Assembly (NCBI GenBank): GCA_031177355.1
Contig: JAPSGR010000001.1
Coordinates: 48,620 to 112,619 of the forward strand
Source: Candidatus Nitrosocosmicus sp.
GTDB taxonomy: Archaea > Thermoproteota > Nitrososphaeria > Nitrososphaerales > Nitrososphaeraceae
DNA: 64,000 bases
Direction of reading: 5' to 3'
A program made the translations under genes and the position numbers. Positions 38,244-42,329 of the stretch are shown here, piece after piece (positions within the stretch are counted from its first letter, which is position 1; each line of letters opens with the position of its first letter). Under the pieces are notes generated by a model. The model made no database searches and had not been told where the DNA came from. It saw only the letters and a program-made list of their open reading frames with translations.

Positions 38244-39083
38244 ATGCATAAACCTCCTTCTTTTTCTCCTGACATTTATCAAAAAGATAAATTGAAAGTT
38301 GATGGAGAAAAGAAAAAGAGTCTACGTGCCAGCAACATCAAGGAATCGAAGAATTTGGCTTTAAAATCTGTAGCTTCTCAGACTAACGATATTCCACAAC
38401 TTGATCTTTCCATTAATCTGTTTGAAAATATTGTGGGTTATGATGATGTAAAGAAGATATTCAATTATGCTTTAAACTCTTCCTTACCTGTTCATATTCT
38501 ACTGGTAGGACCTCCAGGTTCAGCAAAAACATTGTTTCTGATGGAATGTATGAAACTCTCACGGTCTTATTTTACACTTGGCAGTCATAGTACCAAAGCG
38601 GGAATGTTAGACTATTTGTTTAACAACAGGCCACGAAATTTAATCATTGACGAAATTGAATACATGGCAATAAAGGATCAGGCCGCTTTGTTGAGCCTAA
38701 TGGAAACTGGTATTCTAAGTGAAACCAAATTTGAAAAAACTCGTAAATCTGTTATGAGAACTTGGGTGTTTGCATCTTGTAACAATGAAAAAAAACTATT
38801 AACTCCATTACTTTCACGTTTCTTTGTTCTCTACTTTAAGAAATACAATTATGAAGCATTTGAAAAAATTTCAAATCATATACTTAATAGAGAATGTAAC
38901 CTTGATACAGAAATTTCCACATTGATATCTAATTTAGTTTGGAATAAACTAAGATCACGGGATATTAGAGATTGTGTTAAGATTGGGCGAATTTGTAAGA
39001 ATAAAGATGATGTTTACATGATTGTGAAAACATTAAGGCATTATGGCAATACAAATTTAAGTAACGATAAAGATAAGAATTAG
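38244..39083 (+). CDS. AAA+ ATPase (MoxR/RuvB-like)
   Basis: ILLVGPPGSAKTLFLME (Walker A), NLIIDEIEYM (Walker B), VFASCNN (sensor 1), LLSRF. Confidence 0.85.
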   Translation: MHKPPSFSPDIYQKDKLKVDGEKKKSLRASNIKESKNLALKSVASQTNDIPQLDLSINLFENIVGYDDVKKIFNYALNSSLPVHILLVGPPGSAKTLFLMECMKLSRSYFTLGSHSTKAGMLDYLFNNRPRNLIIDEIEYMAIKDQAALLSLMETGILSETKFEKTRKSVMRTWVFASCNNEKKLLTPLLSRFFVLYFKKYNYEAFEKISNHILNRECNLDTEISTLISNLVWNKLRSRDIRDCVKIGRICKNKDDVYMIVKTLRHYGNTNLSNDKDKN

Positions 39084-39163
39084 ACGAAAAAATGGCAATA
39101 TAGCTTTAACATACTTCCAACAATGCCTGTGTGAATTTTTAAATTAGGAATAAATGATTTAGC

Positions 39164-40294
39164 TTGAAAATTTTTATTTGTGGGCCAACTCTGTATTCCC
39201 GTAGCCATTTAGGACACGCACGAATCTTCACCTTTTTTAATTTTTTTATAAATTATTTGAGAGCAAAGGGATACTCGCCGATTGCAGTAATTCAGCTCAC
39301 AGACATTGATCCAAAGATATTCTCTAAAGCTCAAAATACTGATACGAAAAAACTAACAAAAAAATATTTCAAATCTTTGGTGAATGATTTGGCTGCACTT
39401 CAGGTATTGGATAATTTTTGCTTTTCAAGGGTCTCTGATTTTCAAGATCAAATGAAAGATCAGATAGTAAAGATGATAAAGTCAAAAATAGCTTATTCAT
39501 ATGGTGGAAATATTTACTTACATTCGGCTAATCCATTACAAGTAAGCCCATTTGGAAATGGTCCAGAGGAACTAGATAAAATGCCAATAGATTTATCGTC
39601 TGGAAAACTTGATCAAAAAGATATCTTAGTTTGGAACGCAGAAAATTTTTATCCATACTTTTCCACAAGTAATTCACAAAATGGTTTTTTCCAAAATTTT
39701 CTTGTCAGCGGAATCCCGGGTTGGCATTTCCAAGATAGCCAAATAATAGATACAATTTTTAATGGTCAATATGATTATCACGGAGGTGCCTCAGAGTTGG
39801 TGTATCCTCATCATGAATTTATTTATCGATTGTTAGGCAAACTGGGCCCAAACAATTTAATCAATCAAAATCCCGTAAGTTGGATTCATCTGGGAATTTT
39901 AAAAATTAATTCAAAGAAAATGTCCAGTTCTTGCGGGAATATCATCTCAATGAGAAATGCTTTAAAATTATATCATCCCAACACAATCAAGATATTTTTT
40001 TTAAATCATCCCTATAACATTGATATTAACTTTACTAAAGAAAAAATTAAAATAGCAAACTTGATTGACGAAAAAATTTTTTATTTTTTTTGTGATTTAC
40101 ATAATGAAAGAAAACATGGTAGTGAAAACATGAATCGGGAAGCTAAAATTAAATTCTCCAATTTTATAAATATTATAGATGAGAATTACAATACAAAATC
40201 TGCTCTCGGTTTCGTTTTAGAATGTATTGACAACAAGGAAGACCCAGTTTTAATTCGTAAAATGACTTACACCCTTGGACTACAATATTCTTGA
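39164..40294 (+). CDS. Cysteinyl-tRNA synthetase-like class I adenylating enzyme, short paralogue
   Basis: IFICGPTLYSRSHLGHARIF (HIGH region), LTDIDPKIF, GGNIYLHS, GWHFQDSQI, YHGGASELVYPHHEF, KKMSSSCGN (KMSKS); no obvious C-terminal tRNA-binding extension. Confidence 0.85.
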   Translation: MKIFICGPTLYSRSHLGHARIFTFFNFFINYLRAKGYSPIAVIQLTDIDPKIFSKAQNTDTKKLTKKYFKSLVNDLAALQVLDNFCFSRVSDFQDQMKDQIVKMIKSKIAYSYGGNIYLHSANPLQVSPFGNGPEELDKMPIDLSSGKLDQKDILVWNAENFYPYFSTSNSQNGFFQNFLVSGIPGWHFQDSQIIDTIFNGQYDYHGGASELVYPHHEFIYRLLGKLGPNNLINQNPVSWIHLGILKINSKKMSSSCGNIISMRNALKLYHPNTIKIFFLNHPYNIDINFTKEKIKIANLIDEKIFYFFCDLHNERKHGSENMNREAKIKFSNFINIIDENYNTKSALGFVLECIDNKEDPVLIRKMTYTLGLQYS

Positions 40295-41141
40295 ACTAGT
40301 AAAAGAAAATGAGCTCAGCTTCTGTCGAAGTTGGAGCAATAAAGTAGTGAGGCTATTTGGTAATAAAGCCCAAGTCATCATTTGCAAAGACTTCAAAGAT
40401 GATTATTTTTTAAATCGATTCGTTTTCCTTGATAGTCAAATCCTGCACAGATATTGTGAAAAAGATTTTTGTAAATTGCTAGATAAATTGCATAGAATAG
40501 AAAAAAAATATGAAATCGATTTATACATCCATATTGACGAAACTGATCGTGTAATTGAAGAGATATTTCATAAAAATGGACTTTTTGTTATTGACAAGGT
40601 TAATGGAATGATCTATGATCACAATATTTTGAGGAATGTAAAAAAGGAAGTTCAAAGACAAATAAAAGGTTCACTTCCCAAAAACAGTGAATCTCATTAT
40701 AAATTAAACTATGTTACTAATGAAACGGATTATTTGATATGGACAGATACATACAGAAAATCTTTTGATATTGAAGCTAAATTTTCAAAAGAAATTCTCA
40801 AGCACATATGTGACCGTAGGTTTGTTGAGGCAAGATTTATTATTTGTCAATCAAATGCTTGTACCATTGAAACCGAGCACGTGATTTCGAAGGGTTGCTG
40901 CCTGTTTTATCGGACTAGGAGTACAATTGGAATATATTGCCTGGGAACCATCAAATCCTATAGGGGATCTGGAGTAGCTTCTACACTGATTCAGGGAGCC
41001 ATAAATTACTCCCGCCAGCTAGGTTTGGCTCCTGTATGTGCTCAAACTTTGAAGAGTGACAATTTAGAATTATTCTATGAAAAAAACGGATTTAAGAAGG
41101 TATATACTAATTGTATATATAAAATACCAATCCATCGTTAA
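40275..41141 (+). CDS. GNAT-family acyltransferase-like protein (possible N-terminal degenerate GNAT plus C-terminal GNAT)
   Basis: C-terminal GIYCLGTIKSYRGSGVASTLIQGAINYSRQLGLAPVCAQTLKSDNLELFYEKNGFKKVY; overlaps previous CDS by 20 nt. Confidence 0.8.
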   Translation: MDYNILELVKENELSFCRSWSNKVVRLFGNKAQVIICKDFKDDYFLNRFVFLDSQILHRYCEKDFCKLLDKLHRIEKKYEIDLYIHIDETDRVIEEIFHKNGLFVIDKVNGMIYDHNILRNVKKEVQRQIKGSLPKNSESHYKLNYVTNETDYLIWTDTYRKSFDIEAKFSKEILKHICDRRFVEARFIICQSNACTIETEHVISKGCCLFYRTRSTIGIYCLGTIKSYRGSGVASTLIQGAINYSRQLGLAPVCAQTLKSDNLELFYEKNGFKKVYTNCIYKIPIHR

Positions 41142-41180
41142 ATTTAATATGCCTTTCGCGTTATTACATATAGTAATCGG

Positions 41181-42329
41181 TTGAATTCCTTAGATTGTAA
41201 GTTGGATGATTTTATTTTTCCCATATTTGTTTATGAAGGTGAGAACGCGTATAAGCAGAGTTTAGCATCCGGCTACATGAATCAATCAAAAGTATACTAT
41301 AAGAATTTAACTGACTTGTTGGAACGATTACATCTGCTTGGAGTCACTCAAATACTATTATTTGGAGTTCCCAAAACACGGAACAGGAATGGGAGCAAGT
41401 CATCATTTAAACAAGGCGTGATTCAGAGCTCGATAAGAAGGGTAAAAGAAAATTTTGGTAACAATTTTTTAGTTCTTTCAGACGTATGTCTGTGTCAGTA
41501 TAATACTTCTGGTCACTGTGGTATAATATCTGATAGCTACAGTAACAATCAAGCAAAAAAAAATTCTCTAGAGATTGAAATTGACAATGATAAAACCTTG
41601 TATTATTTGGGAAAGGTTTCATTGAGTTTATGCGAATCCGGAACTGATTTCGTAGCTCCTTCTGCCATGATGGATGGCCAGGTATTATATTTGAGAAAGT
41701 TATTGAATAATCATGGGTTTCGGCATGTAAAGATTTTGAGTTATTCGGCAAAACATAATTCATGTCTCTATTCACCATTTAGAAATAATAATTATCTCAA
41801 ACCCGGATTTATAGAAAAATCAAGCTATCAGTCTTCTATATATAACGAAAGGGAATCCTTAAGAGAGATTTTGCTTGATATCAAAGAGGGTTCTGATTGG
41901 ATCATGATAAAGCCATCTCTTTGGTATATGGATATTATCAGACGTGTAAAAGCAATTGTAAACGTGCCAGTTGTTGTGCAAAACGTATCTGGAGAGTATG
42001 CAATGATGAGCAACATTTTGAATTTAATGCGAGGGAAAAACTTTCCTAAAACTTCTGATGACGCAAGAAATGGCGCAATCAGCGAAGATTTAACCCATAG
42101 GTTAGACTTCAAATTAAATTCAGGATCAATCTCTGTCAAACAAAAACAAAAACAAAAACAAAATTTGACCTTATCAATATCCTCCAAAGAATCAAAAATA
42201 ACTGATGACTATGCTGAGGTCTGTAATTTTCTCACTTCATTAAAGAGAGCAGGTGCAGACAAGATTATTACCTATTTTCTGTTGGATTTACTGGATGAAA
42301 AAAGTGATCAAGTTAAGTTTAAAATGTAA
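41181..42329 (+). CDS. Porphobilinogen synthase (HemB)-like protein, divergent
   Basis: VLSDVCLCQYNTSGHCGII (Zn Cys triad), FVAPSAMMDGQV, ILSYSAKHNSCLYSPFR, DWIMIKPSLWYMDIIRRVK, QNVSGEYAMM, SLKRAGADKIITYF. Confidence 0.88.
   Translation: MNSLDCKLDDFIFPIFVYEGENAYKQSLASGYMNQSKVYYKNLTDLLERLHLLGVTQILLFGVPKTRNRNGSKSSFKQGVIQSSIRRVKENFGNNFLVLSDVCLCQYNTSGHCGIISDSYSNNQAKKNSLEIEIDNDKTLYYLGKVSLSLCESGTDFVAPSAMMDGQVLYLRKLLNNHGFRHVKILSYSAKHNSCLYSPFRNNNYLKPGFIEKSSYQSSIYNERESLREILLDIKEGSDWIMIKPSLWYMDIIRRVKAIVNVPVVVQNVSGEYAMMSNILNLMRGKNFPKTSDDARNGAISEDLTHRLDFKLNSGSISVKQKQKQKQNLTLSISSKESKITDDYAEVCNFLTSLKRAGADKIITYFLLDLLDEKSDQVKFKM
42137..42165 (+). repeat. Hexanucleotide microsatellite (CAAAAA)n inside HemB-like gene
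   Basis: caaacaaaaacaaaaacaaaaacaaaat, encodes KQKQKQKQ. Confidence 0.85.

Follow-up and report, generated by a model that had tools for sequence, protein, structure and literature searches.

The window analysed here, a continuous stretch of 64,000 nt, contains four consecutive genes on the plus strand. These encode an AAA+ ATPase (AAA; 38244–39083, 279 aa), a protein resembling cysteinyl-tRNA synthetase (CysRS) that we call CYSL (39164–40294, 376 aa), a tandem GNAT acyltransferase (40275–41141, 288 aa), and a HemB-like second porphobilinogen synthase with an insert near its C-terminus (41181–42329, 382 aa). The list of open reading frames confirmed the gaps of 80, −20, and 39 nt reported in a first-pass annotation of this DNA, the negative value being a 20-nt overlap of the CYSL and GNAT genes. 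The folds proposed in that annotation were likewise recovered using Pfam: an MCM/AAA P-loop in AAA, tRNA-synt_1e in CYSL (E = 1e-49), Acetyltransf_7 in the GNAT (7e-8), and ALAD in the HemB-like protein (3e-88). Taken together, the Pfam and NCBIfam assignments are an AAA/MCM P-loop, the catalytic domain of CysRS, a GNAT, and porphobilinogen synthase. Judging from the gene layout, it is plausible that the four genes form one transcription unit; the overlap of CYSL and GNAT is conserved. Canonical cysS (G000:C105:51189) and hemB (G000:C47:14399) genes are present elsewhere in the genome, which ruled out CYSL and the HemB-like protein as housekeeping copies and bore out their description as extra ones.

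The order AAA-CYSL-GNAT-HemB-like was found on the same strand in 10 other genomes of the Nitrosocosmicus-like genus; in G012, the block is cut by a contig end. Thus, the expectation that relatives would share the four-gene order held within this genus, and the order was absent outside it. Four congeners (G002, G003, G005, and G007) have the same flanks, yet in them AAA directly adjoins HemB-like at a distance of approximately 300–470 nt, and no match to CYSL or GNAT was detected between the two. AAA was found across the window's family, f1, independently of CYSL, whereas the sampled genomes of other families lacked it. Similarly, nearly all f1 genomes have two hemB genes with or without CYSL, the HemB-like gene being the second, and no more than one was seen per genome in the order's other families. 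In all other families, CYSL-GNAT occurs without AAA and HemB-like. Based on the uninterrupted adjacency of AAA and HemB-like in the four congeners and the pairing of CYSL with GNAT across approximately 15 families, the four-gene block is a composite in which AAA and HemB-like are neighbours and not parts of the module. Within the genus, conservation was approximately 72–89% for AAA versus 43–52% for CYSL and 30–34% for the GNAT.

Like porphobilinogen synthase HemB, the HemB-like protein has two intact active-site lysines and the zinc cysteines (SYSAK, MIKPS, DVCLCQYNTSGHC). It differs in being a second copy across f1 and in the long insert of low complexity that it carries in the window lineage. 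Against NF006762, it scored 289.7 bits, just below the cut-off of 297. A second, catalytically intact hemB is thus shared by nearly all f1 genomes; in the window genome, it (41181–42329) accompanies the copy at G000:C47:14399–15163. Nothing was found that ties CYSL-GNAT to tetrapyrroles, a link that the first-pass annotation had suggested.

Short D-type homologues of CYSL are spread over many families of this class. The GNAT gene lies directly downstream of CYSL in 73 of the 79 short-CYSL loci read, usually overlapping it; the remaining six comprise four from genera g4 and g7, whose GNAT lies on a different contig, and two that stop at a contig end. In a search of 61 genomes, the presence of CYSL was scored by hand from search matches, leaving out full-length copies; several of the genomes used in this work are incomplete metagenome-assembled genomes. 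On this basis, CYSL and GNAT occurred together in 33 of 33 genomes, with no discordant case. The two genes form the core of an ancient archaeal gene module, and the likeness previously drawn between CYSL followed by a tandem GNAT and MshC/MshD applies to a strongly conserved pair.

Clustering of neighbouring genes revealed a small protein (SP) of 80–130 aa beside CYSL in 47 loci, mostly in divergent orientation. In the window genome, SP is encoded elsewhere (G000:C88, L234:3627–3971). SP contains the motif LDxDEGIR, and all 72 complete distinct sequences end in Tyr at a mean column identity of approximately 23%; a 73rd sequence lacking this residue (L174) looks truncated where its stretch ends. 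Searches with SP matched no Pfam family and no PDB sequence, and no fold match reached significance. In the 61 genomes, SP and CYSL were both present in 32 and both absent from 26, with one genome having CYSL only and two SP only. This agreement in 58 of 61 corresponds to p = 8e-14, a value that ignores shared ancestry. Using a stricter DNA pattern on 300 genomes, 285 agreed (79 with both, 2 with CYSL only, 13 with SP only, and 206 with neither), and three of the 13 SP-only genomes were CYSL-positive by protein search. The comparison within the genus is a stronger test than the p-values, as the latter ignore shared ancestry and SP is there unlinked to CYSL-GNAT. The tree of flanking genes requires at least two changes, both common to CYSL-GNAT and SP: the pair and SP were lost together at least twice. 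In genus g7, an 85-aa CYSL remnant (L245:8074–8328) lies beside the GNAT and inositol-phosphate synthase genes and a second copy of SP. CYSL appears to have relocated in this genus together with its own SP.

A further protein, MP, contains an HExxH motif. MP is the C-terminal domain of the GNAT in f20 and f22, the product of the next gene in f10 and some others, encoded nearby in f9, and absent from f1. Outside f1, it tracks CYSL (9 genomes with both, 2 with CYSL only, 2 with MP only, and 11 with neither; p = 0.003). MP scored 16.5 bits against Pfam Peptidase M78, below the gathering threshold of 22, and possesses a conserved TE-x-EAY in addition to HExxH. The matches found for MP were M78-like and sub-threshold only. 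A single locus (L274) from a different class of the phylum contains MP, SP, CYSL, and GNAT together; in a further family (L276), CYSL, SP, MP, and a GNAT-like gene share one stretch. SP and MP are the true partners of CYSL-GNAT that lie outside the four-gene block. Where SP and MP are unlinked, their neighbours gave no functional hint. In f10, f20, f22, and f52, the only lineages in which this was seen, the module is adjoined by a CPHC glutaredoxin-like gene whose Pfam glutaredoxin match is sub-threshold (e.g., L196:11107–11445 and L274:8746–9126), with a zinc-ribbon-like protein encoded near it in f10 and f20.

CYSL is a truncated paralogue of D-type CysRS. It lacks the anticodon-binding C-terminal domain, being 376 aa as compared to 440–500 aa, and the C-terminal columns are absent from the alignment. 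The short CYSL sequences constitute one clade nested in the D-type CysRS clade (SH-aLRT 99–100). At position 209 (E. coli CysRS numbering), where the zinc ligand is Cys, all 32 short sequences aligned have Asp. The near-fixed pocket residues in this family are C28, T68, W205, H206, D209, and H234, of which 205 is retained in 31 of 32 sequences and the others are invariant. The window CYSL conserves residues 28, 68, 205, 206, and 234, has Asp at 209, and carries HIGH as HLGH and KMSKS as KMSSS. By contrast, half of the family has another residue in place of E238, and E208, W194, and R202, which are fixed in full-length enzymes, are relaxed in CYSL. The window CYSL scored 180 bits against TIGR00435 (cysteinyl-tRNA synthetase), below the equivalog cut-off of 340, and 91.7 bits against TIGR03447 (MshC), below the cut-off of 485. 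Of three other short sequences compared with TIGR00435, two fell below the cut-off and one, from f20, exceeded it (374.5).

Full-length CysRS with Asp209, the parent clade of CYSL with the same pocket, is widespread in archaea and Patescibacteria and occurs in a few Actinobacteria. These enzymes differ from CYSL in having the anticodon domain, and no GNAT or SP was found beside the copies read. No CysRS other than the full-length D-type enzyme was found in G048 and G050 (96% and 82% complete, respectively), and the copy from G048 exceeds the cut-off of TIGR00435; for these reasons, Asp209 fits the use of cysteine. An altered amino-acid specificity arising from the loss of Cys209 was considered and dropped because the same Asp is present in full-length D-type enzymes that are the sole CysRS found in some genomes. 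Given the loss of the anticodon domain and the retention of the pocket residues, it is most likely that CYSL continues to activate the substrate of the D-type enzymes, presumably cysteine, but with a different acceptor.

The predicted structure of the GNAT (pLDDT 90.8) is a tandem GNAT. Its fold matches include MshD (2c27/1ozp), other tandem acetyltransferases, and many unrelated GNATs, with aminoacyl-tRNA-dependent transferases ranking lower. The C-terminal half contains the acetyl-CoA loop, RGSGVA, at residues 230–235. The model thus places the protein in the MshD/tandem GNAT fold class, without identifying it as MshD itself.

The closest parallel to the pair, MshC-MshD of mycothiol synthesis in Actinobacteria, likewise combines a CysRS-derived enzyme lacking the anticodon-binding domain with a tandem GNAT, and CYSL shares with it HIGH/KMSKS and most pocket residues. 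However, MshC is a C-type enzyme with Cys at 209 (8hfm), whereas CYSL has Asp and stems from a different CysRS class. A GlcN-type pathway needs PIG-L, and the mycothiol pathway has the MshB-like PIG-L, but the presence of PIG-L does not follow that of CYSL: the counts for both, CYSL only, PIG-L only, and neither were 23, 10, 12, and 16 over the 61 genomes and 3, 8, 1, and 12 outside f1. Inositol-phosphate synthase is near-universal, so its adjacency to the module says little. Finally, SP and MP have no counterpart in the mycothiol pathway. Mycothiol synthesis proper was rejected based on PIG-L, the near-universal inositol-phosphate synthase, the zinc site, and the profile scores. CysRS* of Desulfobacterales, which charges SelC*, is also a CysRS homologue without the anticodon-binding domain, but it is linked to SelC*/SelB, whereas CYSL is linked to GNAT, SP, and MP.

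Based on these comparisons, we tentatively favour a reading in which CYSL-GNAT forms the core of a conserved module that handles cysteine outside translation. There, an MshC/MshD-like ligase and N-acyltransferase would act with SP as an obligate partner to yield a cysteine conjugate. In this reaction sequence, the CysRS pocket kept by CYSL would form the adenylate of an amino acid, most likely cysteine, and CYSL would pass this on to an acceptor other than tRNA-Cys; the acceptor of the cysteine is probably no tRNA at all. The tandem GNAT would then N-acylate the cysteinyl product, by analogy with MshC and MshD in mycothiol synthesis. SP may present the substrate, act allosterically, or serve as a scaffold, the C-terminal Tyr being its functional end, and MP, where present, may be a metallopeptidase-like trimming or release enzyme. 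Such a pathway would likely end in a conjugate of the N-acyl-cysteinyl type, which could be a thiol of low molecular weight or a thiol cofactor. Speaking for this reading are the adjacency and co-occurrence of CYSL and GNAT, the matching distribution and shared losses of SP, the tracking of MP and the locus L274, the single CYSL clade with its retained pocket residues, the fit of Asp209 to cysteine, MshD among the GNAT fold matches, and the CPHC glutaredoxin-like neighbour. Counted against this reading are the failure of PIG-L to track CYSL, the aminoacyl-tRNA-dependent and unrelated GNATs among the fold matches, the fact that mycothiol synthesis needs neither SP nor MP, the replacement of E238, KMSSS, and the restriction of the glutaredoxin link to some lineages with a sub-threshold Pfam match.

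Two other schemes retain CYSL-GNAT as the core, and we place both behind the cysteine ligase and N-acyltransferase, itself a choice made with some reservation. The first, which we consider rather unlikely, has SP as the substrate or carrier on which CYSL and GNAT build or make a modification, at the N-terminus, a side chain, or the C-terminal Tyr, with MP cleaving or releasing the product as in a carrier-peptide or RiPP-like system. The co-occurrence and co-loss of so small a protein with CYSL-GNAT, the terminal Tyr held despite low overall identity, and the HExxH motif of an MP that tracks the module outside f1 are consistent with this scheme. However, a C-terminal carboxylate is no nucleophile for cysteinyl adenylate, the SP alignment contains no conserved Lys, Cys, or Ser as an attachment site, and f1 lacks MP. 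Moreover, the Tyr may be structural, as the AF2 model places the SP C-terminus on a strand. Less likely still, CYSL could charge a tRNA or tRNA-like RNA without use of the anticodon and the GNAT could be a Fem-like aminoacyl-tRNA transferase acting onto a protein, lipid, or small molecule. CysRS* and YadB provide a precedent in charging RNA without an anticodon domain (PMC9437257), and the GNAT fold matches include MprF/A-PGS and aminoacyl-tRNA-dependent peptide synthases. Nevertheless, the MprF/A-PGS-type matches rank below acetyltransferases and MshD, the GNAT retains its acetyl-CoA loop, the 64,000-nt window contains no tRNA gene, and E208, W194, and R202 are relaxed in CYSL.

The first-pass annotation had instead suggested that AAA, CYSL, GNAT, and HemB-like might make up a single biosynthetic pathway, perhaps one related to tetrapyrroles. 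The order and strand of the block are indeed the same in every genome of the genus that has CYSL, but the distribution of the genes across the genus and families contradicts a four-gene system: AAA and HemB-like adjoin without CYSL-GNAT in the four congeners and extend across f1 independently of CYSL, and CYSL-GNAT travels without either outside the genus. We regard such a pathway as highly improbable.

Returning to the cysteine ligase and N-acyltransferase, neither a description of the CYSL-GNAT pair nor a low-molecular-weight thiol or cysteine-transfer pathway for Nitrososphaeria-type archaea was found in the open-access literature searched. We see about an even chance that the module represents a hitherto unknown system for making a cofactor or modifying proteins in Nitrososphaeria and related lineages of the phylum, in which a CysRS-derived ligase, a tandem GNAT, SP as a small scaffold whose C-terminal Tyr is obligatory, and a metallopeptidase make a new cysteine-based thiol or a new cysteinyl modification. 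A synthetase without its tRNA-recognition domain has been held through deep archaeal evolution with an acyltransferase and SP and has been lost cleanly with them, and the natural pairs of presence and absence within one genus make the product of the module directly testable. In the window genome itself, the module may be drifting, since the basic residue of DEGIR is replaced by Cys in its SP, residues 252–256 of CYSL are KMSSS, and the nearest relatives of this genome have lost the module.
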